Shown here one piece after another: positions 270 through 18,852 of a stretch of 21,792 nt of DNA; within the stretch, counting starts at the first letter, position 1, and each line of letters opens with the position of its first letter. Position numbers and translations under genes: made by a program. This DNA comes from a virus. The notes below the pieces were generated by a model that saw nothing but the letters and a program-made list of their open reading frames with translations, was not told the origin of the DNA and searched no databases. The DNA lies in IMG/VR virus record IMGVR_UViG_3300032083_003309, positions 1 to 21,792 of that record; one strand, written 5' to 3'.

Positions 270-1445
270 TTATTTTTCTTCAGGTTTATCTATTGGTTTA
301 TCTGTAGGAATACCTGCTAGTTTTTGCATTCTATCTACTGCGGGATTTGCTTTTTTATTAGCTAATCCTTTAAGTTTATCTGCGCTTTTTCGTAATACAT
401 CTTTAGCTTTTGGATCCATTTTAATGTTTTTAATAGATGACTTATCAACACGTTGTTCTTCTAGTGATGATCCCAAACATCCTACCATTCCTAATAATTC
501 ATAAATCACTACTATTTTTTGCATTAATAGATTTGCTTGTAATACACCAACGGAAAGAGCAGATACTGGAGGGGTTATATTACCATTTATATCAAACCCA
601 ACATTACCTGTGGTAACTCCTGCAAATAATGTATTAAGGAAATTATTCATTTGGGTATTTAAGAAATTACATGGGTTTGGATGATTTAAAATCATATTAA
701 CAAAATTGTTTGTCCAATTTCCTGCGTCCCAACCTTGTGGGTAATTAAATCCTGCACCACCTGTTTGAATCCCAAATGTACCTTGTCCAGGACAACCTTG
801 AACGCCTGTTTGTGGTAAATCTACTGTACCAAAAGGTGCACTAGTTGATGGACTGACTGAATTAATTAAGTAAGCCTTATTATTAGCTTCTACTGCGGTA
901 CCTACATAGCTTTGATCTGGTACTTGTCCATCTATTGTTACACATGGTTGTGTCATACCCATAGCTGGATTAGTACAATCTTCTGCTTCTATTTCTGCAC
1001 AAGCAGGAGCTGCAGATCCGGTTGTTCCTAATGAATTATTTAAAGCAGTACAAGCTGGTGATGAATCTGATTCAAAATCAACTAGGATCGTATCTTGATT
1101 ACCATCACTCCACTGACCACCACATGGTTCTACTGTTGTAATTCTTACTGCATCGCCAACACTATAACTAGCATTAGGACCCCCAGTACCAGCTATAGCC
1201 TTTACTATATCTCCTACTTGAGGGGTTTGCCCATCAACAGTAACACATGCAAAAGAAGGATAAGATTGAGTAAAAGGTCCAAAATTTGGGTTACAGGGCT
1301 GTACAAATGTTCTTCTACCTGTACCTGCGGGCACGTAAGTTATATTTTGAGAAGCTGCATCCCAATCAAATGGTCCTGTTCCTTGTTCATTGATCAATTC
1401 TTTGATTGACTCTTTAATTATATTTCTTAATTCTGATTTTTTCAT
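270..1445 (-). CDS. Leader-bearing Cys-containing phage protein, last gene of head operon
   Basis: No known function. Residues 1-21 form an amphipathic leader (KNII-type, ending IKELINEQ) like those of several neighbours. Residues about 48-80 (VQPCNP ... CVTVDGQTPQVGD) resemble a segment near the C-terminus of the giant repeat protein at the right edge, and a second CVTIDGQ copy lies near 168-174. Residues about 233-323 (FNYPxxWxAxxWTNNFV ... HPNPCNFLN ... LLGxxGC) are clearly homologous to the middle of the protein at 12556-14169, and the following basic stretch (DPxAKxxLxK) is shared too. Residues 371-379 (DRMQKLAGI) recur at the end of the adjacent upstream protein. The ATG overlaps the upstream stop. 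Probably a virion-associated or head-delivered protein whose leader is cut after Glu20 by the gp21-like protease; this is inference. Confidence 0.85.
   Translation of the reverse strand: MKKSELRNIIKESIKELINEQGTGPFDWDAASQNITYVPAGTGRRTFVQPCNPNFGPFTQSYPSFACVTVDGQTPQVGDIVKAIAGTGGPNASYSVGDAVRITTVEPCGGQWSDGNQDTILVDFESDSSPACTALNNSLGTTGSAAPACAEIEAEDCTNPAMGMTQPCVTIDGQVPDQSYVGTAVEANNKAYLINSVSPSTSAPFGTVDLPQTGVQGCPGQGTFGIQTGGAGFNYPQGWDAGNWTNNFVNMILNHPNPCNFLNTQMNNFLNTLFAGVTTGNVGFDINGNITPPVSALSVGVLQANLLMQKIVVIYELLGMVGCLGSSLEEQRVDKSSIKNIKMDPKAKDVLRKSADKLKGLANKKANPAVDRMQKLAGIPTDKPIDKPEEK
477..749 (-). repeat. FNYP/WTNNFV module, copy 1 (homologous to 13153-13362)
   Basis: This stretch encodes the FNYPxxWxAxxWTNNFV ... 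HPNPCNFLN ... LLGxxGC module in the last head-operon gene. DNA similarity to the copy at 13153-13362 is visible by eye: 661-720 aligns without gaps to 13273-13332 and shares strings such as TTTGTCCAA and AAATTACA. The two copies are 12.6 kb apart and in the same orientation, with different flanking domains. Confidence 0.75.
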
Positions 1446-2080
1446 TTTCTATTCGGTTTAATGTTTGCTAGTTTTTGCATTCTACTATTTGCAACTCCTC
1501 TTGCAGATGTATCTGGTAAAGTAGATGGATCAAGTTGTGGGTCAGCGACTTTATTTGGGGCAAATGCAGCAGGTGGTGTTGAGACTTTATTTAATAGGTT
1601 AGGTGTTCCTGCACCGGATACATTTATTCCACCCGATCCTACATACTGACATTGTGGTACACTAGAAATGTTGGGACTAACCGGATTAGAAAAGTCTGAG
1701 TTAAGATCATTAAGTACACCATTAGAAGAAATAGCACCTACTTCCACATATACCCCATGAATCGAATTATCAAATACTGAATTAAATGCATTAGCCTGTT
1801 GTTGAGTATCTACTTGGAATACAGTTCCTAAACCACAACCATCACTTGTTACCGCAAATGGGATACCATATTGAACATTAAGTGGTTGTAGGGTGTACAT
1901 TATCCCAAATGGGGTAGATAAACCAGATACTCCAACATAGTTTGGTGAAGGCACATCTTGGGGGTTTGAAATATTAGCAGTAGCTACTGCTACTGCTACT
2001 GTTTGTCCAGGGCTTACATTTTCGTTCATCAATTCTTTAATTGATTCTCTTATTATATTTTTTAATTGGGTTGCTTTCAT
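1442..2080 (-). CDS. Leader-bearing hypothetical protein downstream of prohead protease
   Basis: The 212-residue protein has no recognised family. It opens with MKATQLKNIIRESIKELMNEN, nearly identical in pattern to the next gene's leader, and ends with SRMQKLANIKPNRK, matching DRMQKLAGI near the end of that same neighbour, so the two adjacent genes are partial paralogues at both termini while their middles differ. The body is rich in Gly, Ser, Asn, Pro and Val with few charges and two Cys, as in beta-rich structural proteins. A GTG at 2113 would add 11 residues (IIPEFVNVKI) that overlap the protease gene; I reject it because the leader begins at the ATG at 2080, four bases past the protease stop. 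Likely role: head-associated protein cleaved after the MNE site. Confidence 0.82.
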   Translation of the reverse strand: MKATQLKNIIRESIKELMNENVSPGQTVAVAVATANISNPQDVPSPNYVGVSGLSTPFGIMYTLQPLNVQYGIPFAVTSDGCGLGTVFQVDTQQQANAFNSVFDNSIHGVYVEVGAISSNGVLNDLNSDFSNPVSPNISSVPQCQYVGSGGINVSGAGTPNLLNKVSTPPAAFAPNKVADPQLDPSTLPDTSARGVANSRMQKLANIKPNRK

Positions 2081-2084
2081 GATT

Positions 2085-2696
2085 TTAACATTTACAAACT
2101 CCGGTATTATCACAGATTATATCGCGGATTATATTGTTTACATTAGTATATTTGTATTCAGGTATACGTATTTTACCTTCATTAAGACCTGTTGGAGTCA
2201 TAAAGGCACCGTGTGTTGAAGGAGTAGAAACAAAATCAAAACAAAGTAATTCAAAATCATCTTGTACTTCAACTGTCCCTTCAGACATATTTTCTTTTAC
2301 AGAACCCATTCCACGAGAAGAAATACCAACAGTAATTCCATTTCTGAATAGTTCTTTAAGAATATTTCCTGCTGGAGTAGATAGAATTTCAACTTTTCCA
2401 TATACATCATTTCCTTTCATTTTTACTTCTACAATATTATGAGATACATTTTGTAGATTAATTACTGAAGATTCTGGGTGATCTAATTCGCCCATTGCTC
2501 TTCTTTCTTTTACTGGTCCTTCAGAATATTTTTTAATTTCTCTTTCTAAAATATCTTTAGGATAAATTCTACCGTTTTGGTTTTTAGCCTCTGCTCTCTG
2601 AATGATACCAGATACCATTAGTGGTTTATTCTCTTTAATAGAACGTTCTACTAATAATTTATCTACTTTAAATTGTCTGTATTCTTGTAATAACAT
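2085..2696 (-). CDS. 21: Prohead (maturation) protease, T4 gp21-like
   Basis: Assigned to the T4 gp21/U35 prohead protease family, which assembles in the prohead core and cleaves scaffold, capsid and internal proteins, mostly after Glu in (I/L)-x-E contexts. Visible signatures: NQNGRIYP (about 39-46), GELDHPESSVI with the putative catalytic His at about 73, and GISSRGMGS with the putative nucleophile Ser at about 127, followed by an acidic strand and FDFVSTPSTHGAFM. Length (203 residues) is close to T4 gp21 (about 212). It lies downstream of terminase and portal as in T4. The C-terminal LNEG (171-174) is a possible self-cleavage site. It probably processes the leader-bearing proteins around it. 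Main uncertainty is substrate range, not family. Confidence 0.9.
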   Translation of the reverse strand: MLLQEYRQFKVDKLLVERSIKENKPLMVSGIIQRAEAKNQNGRIYPKDILEREIKKYSEGPVKERRAMGELDHPESSVINLQNVSHNIVEVKMKGNDVYGKVEILSTPAGNILKELFRNGITVGISSRGMGSVKENMSEGTVEVQDDFELLCFDFVSTPSTHGAFMTPTGLNEGKIRIPEYKYTNVNNIIRDIICDNTGVCKC

Positions 2697-2699
2697 ATT

Positions 2700-3032
2700 T
2701 TAAATTGTTTCGTCTTCTATATCTAATTCAGGTTCGGTATCAGATGAATCTGGTGTACTCTTAATATTTTTACTTAATATAGCTTGTATTCTATTTAAAG
2801 TAGTTGAAAAATTACCTTCCGAAGAACCCTGTAGCATAAAATTTACTAAATCATCTATCGTATTAATTTCTTGAGCCTGTAGTCCTTTATACTCTCCTTT
2901 TCTTATGCTTATAGATAAATCACGAAATTTATCTGCTAATGCAGTTACTGTTTTGGTTTCTTCGGGAGCTTCTTGTTCAGCTATTAATTTAGCTATATAG
3001 TGTTTAGCTTCTTGTAGTTTATTATTTTTCAT
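2700..3032 (-). CDS. Small acidic head-locus protein with cleavable-type leader
   Basis: A 110-residue protein placed between the large OmpA-like-segment protein and the prohead protease, three bases before the latter. Its start, MKNNKLQEAKHYIAKLIAEQEA, is an amphipathic helix ending in IAE, the same tripeptide found at the T4 internal-protein cleavage site FIAE. The centre is helical (about 25-90) and the tail is strongly acidic (EPELDIEDETI). In T4 this map position holds the small prohead core proteins gp67 and gp68, so a core or scaffold role is plausible by position and composition, but I see no sequence match that proves it. Confidence 0.78.
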   Translation of the reverse strand: MKNNKLQEAKHYIAKLIAEQEAPEETKTVTALADKFRDLSISIRKGEYKGLQAQEINTIDDLVNFMLQGSSEGNFSTTLNRIQAILSKNIKSTPDSSDTEPELDIEDETI

Positions 3033-3033
3033 C

Positions 3034-5292
3034 TTATTCTAGAGTATTTTTTACTTTCTTATAATCTGTTTTTTCTATTTTATTCATATCAATAGAAAAT
3101 GTTTTAACTTTAGTTCCTTTAGGTAAAAAATCTTTATCTTTTCTATTAACAAACATCCACCCATCTTTATTAGCATCTTTATAGAATTTAGTATTATAAA
3201 ATTCCTTGGGAAACTCAGGAGTATCTTTAGGAGATATAAATATTTTACTATCTTTTTCTATAGATAAAGGTATTGGTTGACTTACATCATCAGGTACCCC
3301 TGCTGGTTGTGGATCAGGTGTAGGTGTTGATGTTCTATCGTCCATAAATACATATATTCCTTTATCTCTTCCGACCGATGTAGCTTTAAATCCTGATTTA
3401 GTTAATTGGGATTTTATATTAGAAGGTAATTTTTCTGCGTCTACTATTCCTATTTGTTTATTATCCTTAGAGGCATACATACTACCTAAATATGCTAAAA
3501 TTTGTCCCGCATTTTTATTTATATTGGAACTATCTAAAAATTGATCAATTGCTGATTGCTCATTAAGCATTTCATAAAAAAGATGTAATGACTCTTTTAT
3601 AGGTTTAAAATCTATAGCTTGTTGTCCTACACCAGCACTACCTGGAGCTAATTGTTGAGCTTTTGCTCTTTGAGATAATTCTACTCCTAATATATTTGCT
3701 ATTTTTGAAGTAAATGAATCTGGTTTTTTTCTAGCATTTACAACAGCTTGAGCTAAATCTCTAATTTCTTTAGGTAAAGATTCATTATCTTTTATTTTTG
3801 TAAAAGATGATTGTGTATAACCACCTAAAGGTGTATTTTCTTTATTATCGTTTAGATAGGGGAATAATGAAAGATCTGGTTTAATTAAGGCCATAATTAC
3901 AGCTAATTGGGCTTCTCTAATTAAAGTACCAAATTCGGAAACTGATGGTGCTACAAATGGTGCACCACTTGTAGTACCTGGATCTGCTACAGGATCAAAA
4001 TCAACTAGAACTACGTTTGTTGGTGGTTCTGTGGTTTCTACTTCTCCTACTCTAATAGCTGATTGAGTAGCAGTAGTGTCTGTTTTTTCTATTTGAGTTA
4101 ATGATTCGGGATTTTGACCTGCTTCTACATTTTGAGTATACGTTGTACCATCTGCTAATGTAATGGTTTTTCCTGAAACAGTATATTCAGCATTTGCATC
4201 ATCTAATCCTTTTTGAATATCATCAAATACATAATCAGCTAAACTATTTGCTCTATTTATATCTAATTTATCACTTTCATTTGTACTATTATCAAAATTT
4301 GAATTAGGGCCAGTATTACTTGACTGCCCAACTATTGTTTCGGAATAATCTTGACCATTTAGTAAATAATCTATAATTTTATCATCTTCAGTATCTGCTT
4401 CATTTTCTCCTTCTGATGTTAATTTACTAGATCCATAATCAAATAAACTAAAATTAGCTGTTTGGTCTCCTTGAATATTAACTCTTAGTCCTTGATCAGC
4501 TGCTTGGTTTATATTATCAGTTTCTGAAGATAATTCACCTGGATCTTCTATATCATCAGGAACTTCTACTTCTACATTTCCATCTGCATCTACAAATATT
4601 TTAACATCTCCACCAAAATTATATATATCTCCTAGTTTTATATCTCCTATACCTGCTATTATATCTTTTATTTGTGCATCATCAAATCCTGCTGCTGCTA
4701 GTTTATTAGATACTCCTGCTAAATTTATATCACTTACTCCAGCTTGAGTTTGAACTGTTTGGAGTGAATCAGGTGATAATGCTTTTACTGTATCTACTAT
4801 TGAAGCAGCGTTCATTTGGAATAACATGAAAAACACAAAAACTGTTTTTATAGCTTTTCCTGCAAAAGTATCAAACCAAAAGTTTTTTAATTCTTCAGTA
4901 TCTTTATCTCCTTGTGGTAATTCAGAATCTAATTTATTGCTATATGCTTCATTTTGTTCATTAACTTTTGTTTTTTTACCTTCAAGTTTATCTTTTAATA
5001 CTTGTAATTCAGCTTCATTTTTAGGTAAAATACCTAATGCATTTAGTCGAAGTGCAAAAGTTATTGCTTTAGAAGAATTTTTAAAATCAGAAGCTAATCC
5101 TACAAGAGAAGCAAAAGCTTTAGTATTTTTTATTTTATCTTTAAGACCTTTTAAAAATTTAGACTCATTTAATAAAGTATTTTGGGGAACAAGACCTTCA
5201 AATAGTTGATCTAATATTTGGTTAGATAATCTATTATTATAACTTTCAAGAAGTTGTTTTTGTCTCCATTTATATATATCAAACTGTCCCAT
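3034..5292 (-). CDS. Large head-locus protein with a hydrophobic segment and OmpA-like domain
   Basis: A 752-residue protein, unrecognised as a whole. The first 20 residues (MGQFDIYKWRQKQLLESYNN) resemble the FDYKKW-type leader of the protein at 12556-14169. A hydrophobic segment (KTVFVFFMLFQMNAASIV, about 149-166) could be one membrane span. Residues about 278-365 resemble an OmpA-like peptidoglycan-binding domain: FSLFDYGSSKLTSEGE, a GQSSNTG turn in place of GHTDxxG, then N...LDINRANSLADYVF in place of LSxxRAxxV. The middle is acidic and low complexity, and residues 609-617 contain YEMLNEQSA, another possible protease site. Context is the head operon between portal and protease, so it may be a core, internal or envelope-interacting virion protein. 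The OmpA call rests on pattern only. The stop is followed at once by the next gene. Confidence 0.8.
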   Translation of the reverse strand: MGQFDIYKWRQKQLLESYNNRLSNQILDQLFEGLVPQNTLLNESKFLKGLKDKIKNTKAFASLVGLASDFKNSSKAITFALRLNALGILPKNEAELQVLKDKLEGKKTKVNEQNEAYSNKLDSELPQGDKDTEELKNFWFDTFAGKAIKTVFVFFMLFQMNAASIVDTVKALSPDSLQTVQTQAGVSDINLAGVSNKLAAAGFDDAQIKDIIAGIGDIKLGDIYNFGGDVKIFVDADGNVEVEVPDDIEDPGELSSETDNINQAADQGLRVNIQGDQTANFSLFDYGSSKLTSEGENEADTEDDKIIDYLLNGQDYSETIVGQSSNTGPNSNFDNSTNESDKLDINRANSLADYVFDDIQKGLDDANAEYTVSGKTITLADGTTYTQNVEAGQNPESLTQIEKTDTTATQSAIRVGEVETTEPPTNVVLVDFDPVADPGTTSGAPFVAPSVSEFGTLIREAQLAVIMALIKPDLSLFPYLNDNKENTPLGGYTQSSFTKIKDNESLPKEIRDLAQAVVNARKKPDSFTSKIANILGVELSQRAKAQQLAPGSAGVGQQAIDFKPIKESLHLFYEMLNEQSAIDQFLDSSNINKNAGQILAYLGSMYASKDNKQIGIVDAEKLPSNIKSQLTKSGFKATSVGRDKGIYVFMDDRTSTPTPDPQPAGVPDDVSQPIPLSIEKDSKIFISPKDTPEFPKEFYNTKFYKDANKDGWMFVNRKDKDFLPKGTKVKTFSIDMNKIEKTDYKKVKNTLE

Positions 5293-5775
5293 TTATACTT
5301 CTTTATAACCCATATAGCCTTTTTTCTTTTTTCTTTTATTATCTCCAAAAGCGTAAGGAGTAGCATATGCCATACTAACACCAGGAGTAAATGAAGCTCC
5401 TGTACCTGTTGTACTTGCTTCTTGAACTTTTTTATATTCTTCGGGATAATTTTTTCTTACGTGAGTTCTAAACTTATTATATATTTCTTTTAATTCTTCA
5501 GAAATATTATATAATACTACATCTTCAGGTTTATCTTCTACTAATTTTTCAAAATCTTGAATTTCTGCTTCTATATCTTTAATCATATTAGATATAGAAG
5601 GTTTACGGACTACTTTAGATGTAACTCTACCTGTTTCAGGATCAGGTTCTCCACTAACTAATTCAAAATCTTGTTCACGATTTTTTCCTTTATTTCCTCT
5701 AGAGGGATCTCTATCTGATTTAATTTCACTAAAAACAGATTCATTTAAATTATATATGTCAGTAAGACTAACCAT
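5293..5775 (-). CDS. Conserved marine-phage head-locus protein, hypothetical
   Basis: A 160-residue protein that overlaps the end of the upstream gene by eight bases and abuts the next start. The N-terminus (MVSLTDIYNLNESVFSEI) holds a possible LNE site. Residues about 64-118 are a charged helical stretch (SNMIKDIEAEIQDFEKLVED ... SEELKEIYNKFRTHVRKNYP). The tail, TGTGASFTPGVSMAYATPYAF followed by a Lys/Arg cluster, is a motif I recall from many marine T4-like phage structural proteins, but I cannot name a function. Its position between portal and prohead protease favours a role in head assembly or in the virion. Confidence 0.78.
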   Translation of the reverse strand: MVSLTDIYNLNESVFSEIKSDRDPSRGNKGKNREQDFELVSGEPDPETGRVTSKVVRKPSISNMIKDIEAEIQDFEKLVEDKPEDVVLYNISEELKEIYNKFRTHVRKNYPEEYKKVQEASTTGTGASFTPGVSMAYATPYAFGDNKRKKKKGYMGYKEV

Positions 5776-6616
5776 GGATCGTTTTTAACTCGTTTACTAG
5801 TTCATAATAGTTAAGCAAGTTAATAACGTTATCATCATTAACAGATGATTTTTTACATAATGGTTTAATCATGTCTCTTGTTTCAGTTAATTTTACAACT
5901 ACTGCTTTATCCTCCACTTTTTTAGAGTATCCAGTAATTGTTTTTTTAACCGTCTTGATTTCCTTGTTGATAAAAGACTTAAGAGCAGGGCTATTAGTAA
6001 CGCTGTTAACATATTCTTTTAATAAGTTTTTTTGGTTTTCTCCTAAACCACTGTACTTGTCATTAAATTTTTCAAGTAAAACTTTATATGTAAGTAATCT
6101 AGTATCTTTATCATACTTAGCATAATCTTCCATTACAACATCTTTTTTAGGTTTGTTTTCTAATGTTTTACCTGTGATATGTTCAAGTAATGTTACTTTT
6201 GAATTAACTATTGATAACGGAGAAGCATTTTTATTTTCAAGTAAATTAAAAATAGATGCCATTATCTTATAGTTTGAAATTTTAGCTTTAAAGAAATCAT
6301 TTACATCATATGTATCTTTAATTTCTTTAATTAAATTATATTTTTCTCTTCTTAACTGACCTTTATTTAACTTTCCATGTGCTTCTATTAATGTATCTAT
6401 TAACATTGTAGCGTTTGATTCTTCTTTAAACTTTTTACCTACAAATGTATGATAAATTTTATACTCTTTTAATAGAGTTGAATCACCACTAAAATATTTT
6501 TTAATAATTGATAAGGCCTTTGGATTACTTCCAGCAATAGTATCTGCTGTTAGCTGCCTTGTGAGGAGTTCGAATAAAATTCCAGTATTCTTGTACTTAG
6601 AATGTTTTACTTTCAT
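5768..6616 (-). CDS. Conserved head-locus protein after portal, hypothetical
   Basis: A 282-residue, basic, helix-rich protein beginning MKVKHSKYKNTGILFELLTR. The track-style longer form starts at a TTG (6628) four codons upstream; I choose the ATG at 6616 because ATG is the rule here and the KxKNTGILFELL start looks like the conserved N-terminus. No catalytic or binding motif is visible; there are many Lys-Glu helices and a central VTLLEHITGKTLE. It follows the portal gene in the head operon, where T4 has prohead core genes, so a structural or chaperone role is possible, but I do not recognise a family with a defined function. A 16-base perfect palindrome ends one base before its ATG. Confidence 0.8.
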   Translation of the reverse strand: MKVKHSKYKNTGILFELLTRQLTADTIAGSNPKALSIIKKYFSGDSTLLKEYKIYHTFVGKKFKEESNATMLIDTLIEAHGKLNKGQLRREKYNLIKEIKDTYDVNDFFKAKISNYKIMASIFNLLENKNASPLSIVNSKVTLLEHITGKTLENKPKKDVVMEDYAKYDKDTRLLTYKVLLEKFNDKYSGLGENQKNLLKEYVNSVTNSPALKSFINKEIKTVKKTITGYSKKVEDKAVVVKLTETRDMIKPLCKKSSVNDDNVINLLNYYELVNELKTIHG

Positions 6617-6617
6617 T

Positions 6618-6633
6618 ATAAATTGCAATTTAT
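6618..6633. promoter_or_regulatory. 16-base perfect palindrome before a head-locus gene
   Basis: ATAAATTGCAATTTAT is its own reverse complement and ends one base upstream of the ATG at 6616-6614. It could be an operator or, in the mRNA, a hairpin touching the start codon. In DNA this AT-rich, such palindromes also arise by chance; the position is what makes it worth listing. Confidence 0.35.
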
Positions 6634-6651
6634 CTATATATAAATATAAAC

Positions 6652-8499
6652 TTATTTTTGAGACTTAATGTTTTTTTCACTTAAAAGCCCGTTTTCTTCT
6701 TCTTCTTTTAAAATTTGTTTTTTATTACGAAATTTTTGAAGAGATTTTTTGATATTAGCAGCTTCAAATGTAGAAACCCTATTAGAATCTGTTGACCTTT
6801 CGGGTCTATCTGGTGATAATCCTTTTTTACCTAGTGGATCTCTACTAAAGTTTCCTTTATCAGAACCATAATTTTGTGGACGTTCTACTGGTCTGCCTGG
6901 ATCTTTTTCATCATACCCTGTTGGTACTTGAGCTGGACCTACTGCTTTATCTCTTTTATTACCATATAATGAAGCCAAATCGTGGGGAGTACCATATGAT
7001 ATACCTGATTCTACAGGATCATTACCTTCGTTTTCAATTTGAGATAATCTGAACTTTTGCATTGCTTCATCAAGCATAGCTTCTTTTTGGTCAGCATACT
7101 CATCAGGTGATAAACCGTATATGTTTTCATAAACCCAATCTTTACTAAAGATTTTATTATCAATCATTGATTGGGCTACTGTAGTTTTAGAAGTAAATAA
7201 TTCTACTTTTTCTTGTTCATATATAATAGATGGTGTAGTTAATTCTAGAGAAAAATCAACTAATTGTTCATCTGTAAATCCTTGAGAATATAAATGTACT
7301 AATGCTATTTTAGTTAATTCTGATTCTATAATTCTTTGAACACGTTCTATAGTACGGGCAAATCTAACATCCATACCTGCTAATGTTGATTTACCTTCTA
7401 CTCCTTCTTCATAACCTAAAAATGGTTTAGGTATTTTAAGGGCAGCCATCATTTTAGCTTTTAAATATTCAATATCAGTTGTACCGTCATAATCTAGACC
7501 TTTAGTAGTATCAATACGAGTTGTAGCATCATTACTTCTAACAGGAATAAAGAAATCTTCAGTCATATTCTGAACATTAAATTTAAGATTATAATCACCT
7601 GTATTTTGGTCTATATAGGGTGTTTTTTTCATTTTATTAGCTGTATCAGCCATAAATTGTTCTATCTTATCAGCATCTGTTTGACCTACATTAATATAAA
7701 ATACTCTTTTTTCTGGGGCTCTCATTATACGATGGATTAACATCGCATCTTCCATCAACATCAATTGTTTAAATACTTTACGAGCTGGTTCTAAATAAGC
7801 TCTACCATAAGGAAGATAATTAGAATCTGTGAGTAATCTAAAGTGGGCAACTTCATAATTTTCTAATGTAAATTGATCTCGTCTAATTGTATTAGTTGCT
7901 CCTGAGGCTAAACCATTTGGATCCATAGTAAATCTAACATAAGAAGGATTTTCAGGATCAGTTCCTTCTTCTCTTACTACCTCATAAACAGATAAAGGTA
8001 AAACATTAAATACACCAAATTTTTCAGATACTTCTAATTTAAGATAAAAATCACCATACTTACACATGTTTCTAACCCATGTAGGAAGATTAAATTATAC
8101 ATTTAAAACATCATAAAATAAATTATGTAATACTTTTCTAATATTTTCATCTGATGAATTAATATTTAGTACTTGTCCATATTCATTTCTTGCTGTAGTT
8201 TCATCAGAAATAATATCAAGTGCAGCTGCGATAATTGGATCATGATCCATAGCTTCATAATCACTATAAAGCTGTAGTCGCATTGACTGATAATTTAGTG
8301 TTGGGTTGTACTGTAGTGATGATCCTACAGGTTTGTGTAAACGTGTAAATCTATCATAAAGTGAATTAGTAGCTAGGTTTCCATATTTTTGGATTCTAGC
8401 AGTATCCATTACTTTGAGTCTTTTTCCTCCTACATTTCGTATGATTACATCACTTGAAAATAAACGTTGTAATCTTGAAAATAAACTAGTATCTGCCAT
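6652..8499 (-). pseudogene. 20: Portal vertex protein, T4 gp20-like, interrupted by an in-frame TAA
   Basis: The portal forms the dodecameric ring at the unique head vertex through which the terminase pumps DNA. The frame is continuous from ATG 8499 to the stop at 6652 except for one TAA at 8097-8095. Upstream are 134 residues (ADTSLFSRLQRLF ... DHDPIIAAALDIISDETTA, a typical portal start); after the TAA the same frame continues FNLPTWVRNMCKYGDFYLKL and on through ENYEVAHFRL, RAYLEPARKVFKQLMLMEDA and GYEEGVEGKSTLAGMDVRFA, all portal-like. Total about 615 codons, longer than T4 gp20 (524) because of a charged C-terminal tail. A GAA-to-TAA change would explain the stop. A phage cannot assemble without a portal, so this is an assembly or sequencing error, a defective genome, readthrough, or split translation with restart at Met 8067. 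Its position after terminase fits T4 order. Confidence 0.88.
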
Positions 8500-8524
8500 T
8501 CTTTAGTTGTTTGTTATAAATATA

Positions 8525-10114
8525 TTAAAGGAGCCAAGTCAAATCTTGTTGTCCGTGTTCTCCTAAATCTTGAGACCAACCTGTTTGTCCCTTATTAGGT
8601 TTATTGCTATATATAGCTTGAGGGCCTTTTTGCCAATTATTTAGTGTTGCATTTGTTAAATCTATTCCTTGTTGTGCAAATTTAAGTGCTGTGTCTCTTA
8701 CATAACACCCTGTAGCTAAAGACATAATTAAATCATCATTATATCCTGTTTGGGCTTCTGCTCTTCCATTTTTCCAAATAAAAGTTCTTAATTCTTCTAA
8801 TGTTCGTTTTCCCTGAATTATTACTGATTTTTCTCTCATATAGGCATCTAATTTACCTATTACAAGAGGTCTAGATTTCATACTCATTGTAAAACCAGGA
8901 ACCATTTTAGTTGTGTCTACTATATCATGCCATTTAGCTAAAAATGCGTCTGCATTAGTTGCGGCGTCTCCTTTAGGTGAATAATATAAATTTTTATATC
9001 CTTTATCTATTACTACTTGAATTGTATTCCAACCTATGTTTGCATTTTCAATAACTAATAAGGCATTATTATATTCAGTTGCTATTGCAACTAACATATG
9101 GCCATATTCTTTAGTACCTATTTGGCTTTTAAATTCACCAATTTGTTTGGCTTCTTCAATATCAATAATATGAAATGCAGAATAATCTTTAGAATCACCT
9201 CTAGCTACATCAGCTACAATTATATAATTCCTATTATAGTCTGGATACTCCCAAATATGCAAATCACCATTTATACCTCTTTTTTCTACAGGATCACATA
9301 AATAGGTTCTTTCATAGTACGATAAAACATCAACATCAAATACAGTATTACCAGAGGTTGTAAAATCACAGTCACATTCTTGTGCTGCCATTCTTCCTCC
9401 TAATTCAGCATCTTGTTGGTTTCTCCAAGCTTGATTTCTTTCTGGGTGTACTGTCCAAGGTAATCTAATTGGTACAAATCCATTTTGATTTTCTTGAGCT
9501 TTAACCCACATTCTATGGAAAAAGTTACCTGTACCATTTGGTGTAGATAATACAATTGCCCTACCACCCGTTGAAAGTGTTTGCTGTGATGATGCCCAAA
9601 TGTCTTCGATCCTATTTTCTTCAATAAAGGCAGCCTCATCAATAATCAACAAAGAAATTGCTTCTGATCTACCAGCATCACTTGCTGCTGATACTGCTTT
9701 AATTTGAGAACCATTTTTTAACCGCAGTGCTAATTTATTTTTTTCAACAAAACCAATTTGTAACCAAGAAGGTAAATTATCATACATAAATTTTACCTTA
9801 GTTACCAAGTTTTTTGCTGTGTCTTGTTTGGTTGCAACTACTAATATATTTTTATCTTTTTGAAACACCATCATCCATAAAGAAATACCTGCGGATAGTG
9901 TTGAAATACCCAACTGTCTAGATTTTAAAATAATATTTCTATCATTTTTATTTAGTAAAGTAAGTACTTTTTCTTGAAAAGGATAAAGATTAAACTGTAT
10001 TCTACCTCTAGTTGGGTGTTGAATATAACAGTATTTTTTCATAAAGTAGACTGGGTCTTTAGCACATTTGATGTACTCTTGCTTTATGATTTGTTTTATA
10101 TTAGTATTTGCCAT
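8525..10114 (-). CDS. 17: Terminase large subunit, T4 gp17-like
   Basis: The DNA-packaging motor: an N-terminal ATPase drives DNA into the prohead and a C-terminal RNase-H-fold nuclease cuts the concatemer. ATPase motifs: a variant Walker A, LKSRQLGIST (63-72), with Lys at the front of the loop rather than before the Ser/Thr, a known terminase deviation; Walker B LLIIDEAAF (155-163) with the catalytic Glu; and the coupling motif LSTPNGTGN (189-197). Nuclease acidic residues appear in VADVARGD (Asp about 302), VIENAN (Glu about 356) and YNDDLIMSLA (Asp about 460-461). Length, 529 residues, is normal (T4 gp17 about 610). It is followed by the portal gene 25 bases on, as is usual. A palindrome overlapping the probable ribosome-binding site precedes the start. 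Confidence 0.95.
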   Translation of the reverse strand: MANTNIKQIIKQEYIKCAKDPVYFMKKYCYIQHPTRGRIQFNLYPFQEKVLTLLNKNDRNIILKSRQLGISTLSAGISLWMMVFQKDKNILVVATKQDTAKNLVTKVKFMYDNLPSWLQIGFVEKNKLALRLKNGSQIKAVSAASDAGRSEAISLLIIDEAAFIEENRIEDIWASSQQTLSTGGRAIVLSTPNGTGNFFHRMWVKAQENQNGFVPIRLPWTVHPERNQAWRNQQDAELGGRMAAQECDCDFTTSGNTVFDVDVLSYYERTYLCDPVEKRGINGDLHIWEYPDYNRNYIIVADVARGDSKDYSAFHIIDIEEAKQIGEFKSQIGTKEYGHMLVAIATEYNNALLVIENANIGWNTIQVVIDKGYKNLYYSPKGDAATNADAFLAKWHDIVDTTKMVPGFTMSMKSRPLVIGKLDAYMREKSVIIQGKRTLEELRTFIWKNGRAEAQTGYNDDLIMSLATGCYVRDTALKFAQQGIDLTNATLNNWQKGPQAIYSNKPNKGQTGWSQDLGEHGQQDLTWLL

Positions 10115-10116
10115 AT

Positions 10117-10132
10117 GGTTATACGTATAACC
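10117..10132. promoter_or_regulatory. 16-base perfect palindrome overlapping the terminase ribosome-binding site
   Basis: GGTTATACGTATAACC is its own reverse complement and ends two bases before the terminase ATG, in the 22-base gap after the upstream gene. On the minus strand the only Shine-Dalgarno-like string, AAAGG, overlaps its 5' arm, so an RNA hairpin (six-base-pair stem, ACGU loop) would hide the ribosome-binding site and crowd the start codon. A protein operator is the alternative. Confidence 0.45.
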
Positions 10133-10136
10133 TTTA

Positions 10137-10676
10137 TTATCTCATATATGATTTTGCTTCAATACTATATAGTACTTGGGCTATACGATCTTCAGTTGTG
10201 CCACTAATAGTAATAGCTTTTTTTCTACAATGCATTCCTATAATTGATCTTATTTCTCTATCAATAGCCATTCTATATTCAGCATCTGTTTCTCTGACAC
10301 CATTATCTTCTATTTTTACACCTTTAGGTGAAACATAAAATAAATGATCATATTCTTGTATTAAGTGAAATAAAGCTGAACTCAAGTGGTGTTTTTCATA
10401 GTCTTTCATTGATGTAGATAATTTAGAAAATGCCATAACATCAATAATTGTTCTATCTGTTATAATATTTTTTTGCATTAACTCAGCTGCTCTTTCAGCT
10501 GCAAATACTAATTGGCCTTTATAAGTGCTATCTGTATTTAATGGGATACCCATTTCCATAAGATACTTTGAACGTTCTGTTCTACAAGTATAATTTTTAA
10601 ATTCAGGTAACTCCTTTAATGCTTTTACTAGTGTAGTTTTTCCTACACTCATTGTTCCACAAAAACCTATTTTCAT
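10137..10676 (-). CDS. P-loop NTPase, AAA_28/NadR-kinase-like
   Basis: A 179-residue single-domain P-loop protein. MKIGFCGTMSVGKTTLVKAL carries a full Walker A (G7xxxxGKTT15). The following RTERSKYLMEMGIPL, the TYKGQLVFAAERA helix, and the Asp-containing strand IITDRTIIDVMAFS (a possible Walker B-like DR motif, as in nucleoside and nucleotide kinases), with HLFYVSPKG later, fit the AAA_28/NadR-kinase-like group. Such phage proteins are usually guessed to phosphorylate a small nucleotide-like substrate; substrate cannot be read here. It lies between a small MORN-like protein and the terminase, with two-base spacing to the upstream gene, in an operon begun by an FAD oxidoreductase. A nucleotide-metabolism role is plausible; a packaging role is less likely. 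Confidence 0.82.
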   Translation of the reverse strand: MKIGFCGTMSVGKTTLVKALKELPEFKNYTCRTERSKYLMEMGIPLNTDSTYKGQLVFAAERAAELMQKNIITDRTIIDVMAFSKLSTSMKDYEKHHLSSALFHLIQEYDHLFYVSPKGVKIEDNGVRETDAEYRMAIDREIRSIIGMHCRKKAITISGTTEDRIAQVLYSIEAKSYMR

Positions 10677-10677
10677 A

Positions 10678-11007
10678 TTAAAATCTTACTGTTCCTTTAA
10701 ATGCTGGATTTTTATACCAAGGTAATCCTTCTTTACCTTTTTGTATTTCATTCCATGTATCAAAATCATATTGAATACCATTTAAATAATATTCTTTTCT
10801 TTTTTGTTCTTTATTAATTAAAGCAGGACCTTCATCACTATGAAATACTGCTCTGTCACCAAAATCTAAAACATGTGCTGTTGTTTTAGAGCCATCTTCT
10901 TCTATTCTAGATACTCTTCTTACTTTAGTTTTTGGATTAACTGATCTTTGAACTTTATCTAATTGTTCTTTTCTTGCTTGTTCAGCATTTATTTGATGTT
11001 TATTCAT
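10678..11007 (-). CDS. Small MORN-like hypothetical protein
   Basis: A 109-residue protein whose ATG overlaps the end of the oxidoreductase gene by eight bases. The N-terminal third is a charged helix (AEQARKEQLDKVQRSV). Residues about 59-87 (HSDEGPALINKEQKRKEYYL followed by NGIQYDFDT) resemble the degenerate MORN-like units seen in T4-like phages, which have the form DGPAxxxxxGxKxYWLNGxxH. Such repeats are thought to mediate protein contacts, but no function is established for the phage versions. There is one such unit here rather than a tandem series. The overlap and tight spacing to the kinase-like gene suggest co-expression with it. Confidence 0.72.
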   Translation of the reverse strand: MNKHQINAEQARKEQLDKVQRSVNPKTKVRRVSRIEEDGSKTTAHVLDFGDRAVFHSDEGPALINKEQKRKEYYLNGIQYDFDTWNEIQKGKEGLPWYKNPAFKGTVRF

Positions 11008-12349
11008 AACTTACTATACTATGTTCGTGAAAATCAGGAAATTCTTGTTTTGTCTTTAATAATGATTCAGCAACATATGTACCTTGAGCTCCTGACACTG
11101 TAATACCTCTTGCTGACAATGCATCACCTACAAAATGTACATTAGGAAACCTAGTAAGACTTAAATCATTGTAGTTAACTAATGGTTCTGGTGATAAATA
11201 TTTTACTTCAGGCATATAAATACCCCAATCTTTACCTAGTGTTGGAAATACTTTTTCCATATCTTCAATAAAGTCGTGAATATATGAAGCATAATCCCCA
11301 ATAGCATCCCATAATGGGTCCATACTATTTACAACGTGTGTTTTTACATAATCACCTTCTGATGTTTTTGAAGGTACTCTGTGTGATGGTGAATAAAATA
11401 AACCTACACCTTCATGTTGTAGTTTTTCTACTGCTGCTCTTGACCAGTCAAATGGTTTATTTATACCTCTAATTTCCATTAAAATACCAAAATTAGTCAT
11501 ATCATTTCTATATGATTCATCTTTTTTAGCATGACCATTATAACTTATATCTCCATAAGTGTGTTCAGCAGCTACATAAGCAGCATTATTATTAGTACAA
11601 AATGATCTTAATGATACACCTTTATCATCATATTTTCTATATAATTTAAAATCATAAGACACATCAATTAATTTTTGAAAGTGCTTTTGTGGTGCTTCAA
11701 AACGTACTCCAATTTGTACTGATTTAGGTTCTGTAGGTAATTCATACCTTTCTGCTAATTGTTTTCCAAAATCAATTCCTGATTTACCTACACCAAAAAT
11801 AAGTTGATCATATTTAAAACTAAGTTCATGTTTAGAACCTAAACCACAATATACTTCTTGATTATCAAAATCAATATCACCAACTTTAGTTTCCCAATGA
11901 AATTCAACACCATTATCAACTAAATAGTTATACCAATTTTTACCAATTTCATGTAAATAATCCGTACCAACATGCCACACAGGGAATAATCTTAAACCAA
12001 AATAAGGTTTAATAAAATCTGGTTCTGCTACTGGATTAGAGCATTGTACTTCTTCTGGTTTAGGGTGAAATCTTTTGAAATTATTAATAACTTGATCCAT
12101 TAATTCCATTGCCTTTTCGTCTCCACAGTATTTAGATAATTGACCACCTATTGAAGTGTGGTAAGTTAATTTACCATCAGACCAACCACCAGCACCTAAC
12201 ATACCTGTCATTACTTCTTCAGGTAATCTGCTGTATGGATCTTTACCCATATCAATAATAGTGATTTTTCCTTCAAAATTGTTGTCTACTAATTTAGTTG
12301 CTGCGTTTATACCAGCAACTCCTGCTCCTACAATTACTACTTTAGTCAT
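11000..12349 (-). CDS. FAD-dependent oxidoreductase (candidate auxiliary metabolic gene)
   Basis: A 449-residue flavoprotein. KVVIVGAGVAGINAATKLV (3-21) is a textbook Rossmann dinucleotide-binding start (GxGxxG), followed by an acidic-ended strand (ITIIDMG) where the FAD ribose binds. The C-terminal FVGDALSARGITVSGAQGTY (about 406-425) is the second FAD motif, and YDQLIFGVGKSG (about 180-191) is the mid-chain GG/ATG-like motif. The layout (including GGWSDGKLTY near 53-62) is closest to the FAD-dependent dehydrogenases of the COG2509 type, whose substrates are mostly unknown; I infer this from memory of the family. It is the first gene after a strong terminator and begins the operon that carries kinase, terminase and portal. 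No signal peptide, so it acts in the host cytoplasm. Confidence 0.88.
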   Translation of the reverse strand: MTKVVIVGAGVAGINAATKLVDNNFEGKITIIDMGKDPYSRLPEEVMTGMLGAGGWSDGKLTYHTSIGGQLSKYCGDEKAMELMDQVINNFKRFHPKPEEVQCSNPVAEPDFIKPYFGLRLFPVWHVGTDYLHEIGKNWYNYLVDNGVEFHWETKVGDIDFDNQEVYCGLGSKHELSFKYDQLIFGVGKSGIDFGKQLAERYELPTEPKSVQIGVRFEAPQKHFQKLIDVSYDFKLYRKYDDKGVSLRSFCTNNNAAYVAAEHTYGDISYNGHAKKDESYRNDMTNFGILMEIRGINKPFDWSRAAVEKLQHEGVGLFYSPSHRVPSKTSEGDYVKTHVVNSMDPLWDAIGDYASYIHDFIEDMEKVFPTLGKDWGIYMPEVKYLSPEPLVNYNDLSLTRFPNVHFVGDALSARGITVSGAQGTYVAESLLKTKQEFPDFHEHSIVSYE

Positions 12350-12555: not shown

Positions 12556-14169
12556 TTATTTATTACAACTAGTGCAACCTTTTGTTTCTCTCATTATTCT
12601 TTTTTCTCTATAGTATACCATTTTTCCTTTTATACGTTTTAGTTTACCCATAGATCTATCTTTAGCCATAACCATACCTTTAGGATAACCTGTATCTTTA
12701 TTTATACAAACACATCCTGCTTTGCATGGACATCCACCAGAACAATCAGGTAAAGGGCCTTCAATTCCATCACCATCTACTACACAATAATCTTTTCCAA
12801 CATTATATAGTTCATCTTTTCTATCACGGCCTCTTTCAGATCCTTTACAAGCTCCCCCACATTCGTGAGAAGGACATAAATCACCTCCGGCAGTTTTACA
12901 AACACCATTTCTACAACTACATGCTTTTTGTTTTTCTTGAAGTTCTGAAAGGGTTTCTTTAATAATTCTTTTTAAAGTATTTATTTTATTTTCGTTTCTT
13001 CTTCTTCTTTTTCCTGTTTCTTTTTTACGACTTAGTCCTCTGATTTCTTTTTCCCTTTTTTGTAATATTTGTTTTGCTGCAGGGTCTAATTTTATTTCAT
13101 TAATTTGTTCTTGTAATAATGAAGTAAATGGATTTGGATTAGGTAAACCACATCCTGTTAACCCAAGTAATGCGTGTACTACTGCAAACTTTTGATAAGT
13201 TAAATTAGTTTGTAGTGGTCCCATACCACCTTGTTGTAGTTGATTTCCAAATTGGTTATATCTTTGATTTAGGAAATTACAAGGATTAGGATGAGCTAAC
13301 ATCATGTCAACAAAATTATTTGTCCAACCTGTAGCACTCCAATTATTAGGATAATTAAATTGGGTACCTCCTCCTATACCATAATCATCAAAACTACCTG
13401 TTCCCGCTTGTGTAGGACCGCCTGTTGAGGTTATTAAAGATGCTGATGCGGCACATCCAATATTCATATTTGTCCAATTTACATAAGTAGAACTAGGCCC
13501 ATCCATACTAGGATGAACAAGTTGAACCTGATTTGGAAATGTAAAACCAGGATTTGAATTATCAAAAGGATTTGGTAAACTTGAAATAGGTACATTGTTA
13601 GGGGTACATAAGATACCATTAGAATGTGGTTGTGAACCCGGATAAGGAGTTAATTGTTGAGTTTGTGCATATACAAAAGGATCACAATAAAAACATTCTG
13701 AACCTGTAGCTGAACCTGTTGTTGTAGTTGTTGTACCTGAACCTGTTGCTGAACCCGTTACAGCACCTGAACCTGTTGCTGAGCCTGTTGGTGTAGTTGT
13801 TGTAGTTGTTGTACCTGAACCTACTGAAGGACAAAATCCTGTAACAAAAGCTTGATCATAAAAATATCCTATTGCAGGTCCTCCTCCACATCCTGAACTT
13901 ATTCCTGTAAAATTAGGGTCTCCTATATAACTACCATTCATAACTGCTCCACCCATAGCTGTGTAACCTGATTGTTGTTGTAATGTTGATAATGGTGTTG
14001 ATATTATAGTACCTCCATTTATTGATGCAGCACTAATTGGATTTGGAGACTTACCGTATATTCCAGTTCCATCAGGTGTTTGGCAAGCATAACACATAGT
14101 TCCTGCTTGTTCATTTATTTTACCATATTTATTTTCGGTAACCCATTTTTTATAATCAAATTTTGCCAT
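12556..14169 (-). CDS. Cys-rich, leader-bearing phage protein, apparent fusion of two units
   Basis: About 537 residues, no named family. The start MAKFDYKKWVTENKYGKINE ends in an INE site before QAG. Residues about 119-157 are a Thr/Gly/Ser low-complexity linker. Residues about 270-340 (FNYPNNWSATGWTNNFV ... HPNPCNFLN ... LLGLTGC) are homologous to the last gene of the head operon, followed by the same DPxAKxxLxK basic segment. Then, at about 394-411 after KRRRR, an internal copy of the amphipathic leader appears (INTLKRIIKETLSELQE), leading into a distinct Cys-rich C-terminal domain (CSCRNGVC ... CPSHECGGAC ... CSGGCPCKAGCVC ... CTSC). The layout looks like two formerly separate leader-bearing genes joined in frame. 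It starts with a TAATG overlap with the holin-like gene. Probably virion-associated. Confidence 0.85.
   Translation of the reverse strand: MAKFDYKKWVTENKYGKINEQAGTMCYACQTPDGTGIYGKSPNPISAASINGGTIISTPLSTLQQQSGYTAMGGAVMNGSYIGDPNFTGISSGCGGGPAIGYFYDQAFVTGFCPSVGSGTTTTTTTPTGSATGSGAVTGSATGSGTTTTTTGSATGSECFYCDPFVYAQTQQLTPYPGSQPHSNGILCTPNNVPISSLPNPFDNSNPGFTFPNQVQLVHPSMDGPSSTYVNWTNMNIGCAASASLITSTGGPTQAGTGSFDDYGIGGGTQFNYPNNWSATGWTNNFVDMMLAHPNPCNFLNQRYNQFGNQLQQGGMGPLQTNLTYQKFAVVHALLGLTGCGLPNPNPFTSLLQEQINEIKLDPAAKQILQKREKEIRGLSRKKETGKRRRRNENKINTLKRIIKETLSELQEKQKACSCRNGVCKTAGGDLCPSHECGGACKGSERGRDRKDELYNVGKDYCVVDGDGIEGPLPDCSGGCPCKAGCVCINKDTGYPKGMVMAKDRSMGKLKRIKGKMVYYREKRIMRETKGCTSCNK
13153..13362 (-). repeat. 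FNYP/WTNNFV module, copy 2 (homologous to 477-749)
   Basis: Second copy of the module, within the Cys-rich fusion protein. It is shorter than copy 1, lacking about 20 residues between the CNFLN and LQxNL segments. Its presence in two otherwise different proteins shows duplication and domain shuffling within the genome. Confidence 0.75.
13701..13818 (-). repeat. Thr/Gly/Ser-coding low-complexity repeat
   Basis: Short direct repeats on the plus strand (CCTGAACCTGTTG-like and TGTAGTTGTTG-like units) encode a GSATGSG / TTTTTT pattern, a mucin-like flexible linker joining the N-terminal part of the Cys-rich protein to its middle domain. Such tracts change length easily by slippage and may vary among related genomes. 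Confidence 0.7.
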
Positions 14170-17970: not shown

Positions 17971-18852
17971 TTATATAATTCCTGCTCTTCTTTTAAATAT
18001 TTCTTGTAATGATTCTGCTTTGAAACCTGCTTCAAAATCATCTTGTTCTTCAGTTGAAAAATAAATCATTGGAACAGATTCTGCTGGTTCTTCTCTATCA
18101 TAGTTAGGTTCATAATAATTACTTGTCATTTTTTCATCTATTTCAAATCCTTTATCTGTAATAAATTCTAGCATTTCATCCCAAACCTTATCATCAAATT
18201 CTCTTCTTACAAATGAAAATTTAACTCTATACATTCCTGGTTTTTCTTCACGAATTGAACTATATTCATCAAATTTTTCTTCAATTTCTTTTTCAAGATC
18301 ATCTGTAAATTTATTATCTACCATTTTTTTAGCTCTTGCTGAGGGCATTAAATCTTTAGGATCTACAAAAGTTCTTTTATCTTTACCAGAAATACTACGA
18401 CCATAGTCATCTGTATCTGATGTATCTTGTTCTTCTATACTATCTACTTTACTATCATCTACATCTATTTCTAAAGTATCCCAATATACATCTTGTATAT
18501 TACCTGATAATTCGTAATTAGCTTCTACTGAAACAGTTACTATAAATCTCCATTTATCATCTTGTGAATATGCTACAAAATCTATGTCTTTACCTTCATT
18601 ATCATGATCTTGTACTTCATCACCTTCTTCAAAATCAATATTAGGATGAGATTCATCTCCCCAACTAATAGTAACATCTTCTAAAGGACCAGTAGCTTGA
18701 CCATATTTAATTTTAACTTTTTCCTTTTCATTTTGAACAAGAACGTCTACTTCAAATTCACCCGCTGTAGTATTTTTAGCTGGTTCACTAGGAACTTGTT
18801 GTTCATTTAGTAATCCAAATTCTTTAGCTATATCTTTAAATTTTCCTTTCAT
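17971..18852 (-). CDS. Acidic leader-bearing protein, hypothetical
   Basis: A 293-residue very acidic protein. Residues 1-18 (MKGKFKDIAKEFGLLNEQ) form a short basic amphipathic helix ending in a LNE site. Residues about 31-130 are beta-rich (EFEVDVLVQNEKEKVKIKYG ... DKWRFIVTVSVEANYELSG), probably a beta-sandwich, and about 175-260 form a mixed domain (KEIEEKFDEYSSIREEKPGM ... RVKFSFVRREFDDKVWDEML). The tail ends EIFKRRAGII. No catalytic motif is visible and I do not recognise a family. It starts two bases after the giant repeat protein's stop, so it is co-expressed with it. A virion or head-internal role is inferred only from the leader and the neighbours. Confidence 0.8.
   Translation of the reverse strand: MKGKFKDIAKEFGLLNEQQVPSEPAKNTTAGEFEVDVLVQNEKEKVKIKYGQATGPLEDVTISWGDESHPNIDFEEGDEVQDHDNEGKDIDFVAYSQDDKWRFIVTVSVEANYELSGNIQDVYWDTLEIDVDDSKVDSIEEQDTSDTDDYGRSISGKDKRTFVDPKDLMPSARAKKMVDNKFTDDLEKEIEEKFDEYSSIREEKPGMYRVKFSFVRREFDDKVWDEMLEFITDKGFEIDEKMTSNYYEPNYDREEPAESVPMIYFSTEEQDDFEAGFKAESLQEIFKRRAGII

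Follow-up and report, generated by a model that had tools for sequence, protein, structure and literature searches.

An in-frame TAA in the T4-type portal gene of a metagenomic phage contig very probably reflects a consensus error or a defective variant

Introduction

Phage portal proteins are essential, and a portal gene interrupted midway by a stop codon raises the question of whether it is decoded in an unusual way, has been split in two, is dead, or is simply misrepresented by the contig. We addressed this question for the window analysed here, a 21,792-base assembled virus record (IMGVR_UViG_3300032083_003309) of a marine phage that is probably a genome fragment and carries its main genes all on the minus strand. 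The features needed for the argument are as follows.

8525..10114, minus strand: terminase large subunit, the gene immediately 5' of the portal (phrog_2, E = 8.3e-51; Terminase_6N)
6652..8499, minus strand: T4-type (gp20-like) portal frame with one interruption (PF07230 and phrog_213 matches in both halves)
8098..8499, minus strand: N-terminal 134 codons, 5' of the stop (translation; profile matches)
8095..8097, minus strand: in-frame TAA, portal codon 135 (translation; Glu in the near-identical contig L156)
6652..8067, minus strand: 471-aa frame starting at Met145, the ORF proposed for a restart, judged to be no independent gene
8416..8693, minus strand: tract divergent from L156, with 2 synonymous portal and 19 terminase changes and frames open
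2085..2696, minus strand: S77 prohead protease (profile matches)

Results and discussion

A portal gene with one internal stop

Translation of 6652-8499 on the minus strand gave 615 codons plus a terminal stop, with a single internal stop and no frameshift. This bears out the first-pass annotation, which had described a frame from 8499 to 6652 that is open save for the TAA at 8097-8095 and resumes portal sequence after it without a shift. The part from Met145 onwards matched the core of T4-type portal profiles (PF07230, E = 9.6e-60, 203 bits against a cut-off of 22.9; phrog_213, E = 3.3e-52), and the N-terminal 134 aa gave a match to phrog_213 (E = 3e-6) and one to PF07230 that falls under the cut-off of 22.9 (E = 2.1e-4, 20.6 bits). 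The two halves align to successive stretches of these same profiles. The continuous frame of a T4-type portal is broken in the window, whereas it is intact in L156, the portal copy of which also matches T4 gp20 (3ja7, E = 7.4e-21). The interrupted gene is a portal by descent, and as written no portal protein is possible from it.

Nonsense changes are readily produced in this gene: of all single substitutions in the window portal, 317 of 5,535 (5.7%) give a stop. One nonsense site in one contig therefore needs no special cause, and scanning many contigs will turn up such cases.

The stop aside, the phage would be an unremarkable myovirus of the T4 superfamily with relatives among phages of Flavobacteriia. 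Several other large proteins, some of them without profile matches, are encoded on the minus strand besides the terminase, portal and protease. Megablast with the complete window as query returned no match among named phages. The closest isolate in the phage collection was Flavobacterium phage vB_FspM_immuto_2-6A (Immutovirus; hereafter immuto_2-6A), which encodes a gp20-like 'capsid assembly protein' (YP_010114609.1), and one of the two matches in the genome collection was a Flavobacteriales metagenome bin; together, these two relatives make a flavobacterial host likely.

Other parts of the window also drew attention. Upstream of the packaging genes, at 11000-12349, lies a possible auxiliary metabolic gene that resembles FAD/NAD-dependent oxidoreductases (Pyr_redox_2, phrog_12409). 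The long ORF at 18854-21790, which is open-ended, contains many repeats of a cysteine-containing module (type GC.D..A.NYD..A..DDG.C). Several window proteins also have in common a short N-terminal stretch that is rich in Lys, Ile and Leu and ends in [LIM]xE (e.g., LRNIIKESIKELINEQ and LKNIIRESIKELMNEN), located as follows.

270-1445, 1442-2083, 2700-3032, 12556-14169 and 17971-18852: Lys/Ile/Leu-rich stretch at the N-terminus, with one further internal copy in 12556-14169

In T4, capsid-targeting peptides are cleaved by the prohead protease. By analogy, the Lys/Ile/Leu-rich N-termini could be capsid-targeting peptides cut by the S77 protease of the window.

A near-identical contig carries glutamate at the stop

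All 10,391 bp of the contig L156 (IMGVR_UViG_3300034407_003021) aligned to window positions 1103-11493, at 99.77% identity, and codon 135 in L156 is GAA (Glu). L156 entered the comparison through a pattern that required Glu, although it was also recovered by an exact search in which the first base of the codon was left free; an exact search elsewhere in the portal likewise returned L156, and L156 alone. The single substitution that the first-pass annotation deemed sufficient is what separates the two contigs at this codon (GAA in L156, TAA in the window), a change from G to T on the coding strand. The position earmarked there for inspecting reads, 8095, was however wrong: on the minus strand the codon starts at 8097, and 8097 is the base that differs.

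Window positions 1103-8096 and 8694-11421 are identical to L156 (over 9 kb), such that the differences all fall within 8097-8693, apart from three within the final 72 bases of L156. Those at 8416 and 8443 are synonymous portal changes, while the terminase C-terminus (8555-8693, about 140 bases) bears 19 substitutions with the frame kept; two gaps in the first alignment of the contigs disappeared on closer comparison of the tract. Over 151 terminase positions, L156 and the more distant L171 were alike at 149, compared with 132 and 131 for the window against L156 and L171, respectively. The window version of this tract was not found in viral_contigs by exact 35-mer or degenerate search, and it represents either a recombination tract or an assembly mosaic. 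The TAA lies 319 bases from the nearest edge of the divergent tract, and is the sole difference outside that tract and the contig end. L156 is accordingly the same strain as the window or a close sibling, differing by Glu at codon 135 and by the terminase C-terminal tract, and it is a fair inference that 8097-8693 marks either population mixing or a locally weak assembly.

Codon 135 is glutamate across relatives

The first-pass annotation had proposed a comparison with the portals of close relatives. Among 80 viral contigs chosen without regard to codon 135 (fetched by patterns beginning at Met145 or later), all 80 encode Glu at this codon and none has TAA. A larger set of 188 loci was reduced to 127 non-redundant portal stretches after removing 61 contained ones; Glu was present in 126 of the 126 with the codon aligned (122 GAA, 4 GAG; one of the 127 lacked an aligned codon), a count that is partly selected because it includes loci fetched with a pattern requiring Glu there. 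Across 73,991 codons in these 127 stretches there were 10 in-frame stops, all at residue 614, the natural C-terminus. Since stops occurred only at the natural end, internal stops are rare in the portal gene.

The conserved context of codon 135 was also scanned in viral_contigs with TRR (stop codons or TGG) at the codon itself. This gave no stretches, compared with at least 120 matches when GAR replaced TRR, although such scans may omit records very near the window, among which further TAA-bearing copies could be hidden. One relative, L194, which was recovered by the exact search with a free first base and stands outside the 127-stretch count, fits the TRR pattern at every other place yet was absent from its matches, implying that its codon 135 is not TAA. 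In another (L039), an apparent in-frame stop 46 codons upstream of Met145 was rejected, as the first bases of that contig do not continue the portal; they are contig-end junk or a junction, and L039 is no parallel to the window stop. Among the copies seen, the TAA is private to the window contig.

Weighing readthrough, a split portal and gene death

The stop could be decoded, with a suppressor tRNA of phage or host, or programmed readthrough, yielding full-length portal from the TAA. Past the stop, the frame stays open and matches L156 exactly, as this would require, but the TAA sits in an unfavourable setting for it. The base that follows is U, and one study describes UAAU as the bacterial termination signal of highest efficiency (PMC5289835); folding of the 100 bases downstream is no more stable than that of shuffled sequences (z = 0.13; 111 of 200 at least as stable); and no relative examined has a stop at codon 135 (0 of the 80 independent ones), so that none of the features looked for in programmed readthrough was found. 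Nor does general recoding fit. A recoded phage would be expected to hold the codon inside many genes and to avoid it as a terminator, whereas TAA ends 19 of the 21 listed window frames (one of the 19 being the portal stop in question), in agreement with the first-pass view that it is a real stop in the other genes. The tRNA search of the 21,792-base window found none. The window covers a minor part of the phage genome, and tRNA genes may sit elsewhere in it. Only one of nine longer related records, from an 81 kb relative, had tRNAs (Leu, Val and Lys), and ARAGORN called tRNAs for Ser, Glu and Gln in immuto_2-6A, where a Cys tRNA is annotated in the record but was not called. The search for a suppressor tRNA suggested by the first-pass annotation, made for a window that is only a fragment, thus came back empty, with no stop-reading tRNA in the window, the tested relatives or immuto_2-6A. 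No premature portal stop with readthrough in a phage was found in the open-licence literature. We therefore give decoding of the TAA very little chance. It is just as doubtful that this strain, unlike L156, reads a real portal TAA through, with a suppressor tRNA encoded elsewhere in its genome or by its host, and so ties head assembly to suppression. Were the stop real and translated through, it would count as an uncommon example of TAA suppression acting on an essential gene of a phage.

Alternatively, the portal could be split, with a 134-aa N-terminal chain assembling together with a 471-aa chain restarted at Met145 (8067). An ATG 27 bases past the stop does open a 471-codon frame, but a restart there would lose ten residues (135-144), among which E135, F136, L138, W141 and R143 are each shared by all 126 aligned relatives and N137 by 125 of the 126, in a set that includes loci selected with a pattern covering residues 130-139; residues 139, 140, 142 and 144 are variable. 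Position 145 is Met in 123 of 125 relatives and Ala or Leu in the others, and so reads as an internal residue rather than a start. This conservation over 135-145 fits one continuous protein, and no split relative was seen. No ribosome-binding site is evident by eye before the Met145 ATG, but the same holds for most other starts in the window and provides no argument for or against a restart. A split portal is consequently most improbable in our view. The chance that the gene is a long-dead pseudogene, with portal function lost here and taken over elsewhere in the genome, seems slimmer still: the frame is broken, but beyond codon 135 just two of the 1,848 portal bases differ from L156, both synonymously, and the terminase and protease genes nearby are intact.

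Consensus error or defective variant

The stop is very probably a consensus or assembly error, or else the mark of a defective variant genome in a mixed population of phages. Thus, of the four options that the first-pass annotation raised without choosing among them, consensus error and a defective variant are supported, while neither decoding of the TAA (readthrough, suppressor tRNA) nor a split portal finds support in the evidence from relatives, codon context and tRNAs. Under the favoured explanation, an isolated single-base change would have turned Glu codon 135 into TAA in the window contig, and translation of the sequence as written would end there and give no working portal. Intact copies of the same strain exist. 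We infer that the change is non-functional. Both the privacy of the stop among the copies seen and the Glu of near-identical L156 support this explanation. The identity outside 8097-8693 indicates a portal without further decay, and the nearness of the stop to the divergent tract makes strain mixing or poor local assembly plausible.

Between its two forms, an error seems somewhat the more probable, with a real null allele a serious contender. G to T changes often accompany oxidative DNA damage in libraries, although this is a weak argument here. Against an error, the more than 9 kb of identity to L156 outside the tract argues that the consensus is generally accurate. Moreover, the terminase tract keeps its frame despite 19 substitutions and so resembles true divergence between alleles, not noise from sequencing; the stop could by extension be a real allele too. 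Repeat-driven misassembly was considered separately and rejected, as the sole near-match in the window to the 17-mer spanning the stop (20395-20411, two mismatches) is too short to account for it.

As a biological mechanism, the portal stop is probably unimportant. Its value is as a caution that a single nonsense codon in one metagenomic contig calls for comparison with near-identical contigs before recoding or readthrough is invoked.

Comparison with known systems

The gene order of immuto_2-6A is similar to that of the window (terminase, portal, three ORFs, S77 protease), and its portal shares 56.5% identity with the 471-aa window query over 99% of its length. Unlike that of the window, however, it is annotated as a single uninterrupted CDS of 1,854 bases. 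In recoded phages, the reassigned stop codon is found in many genes. The stop-codon-recoded crAss-like phages resemble the window in having an essential structural gene broken by a stop codon; the reassigned codon described for them is TAG, read as Gln (code 15) (PMC9523058). In contrast to these phages, the window has one TAA in one gene and otherwise uses TAA as its prevailing terminator.
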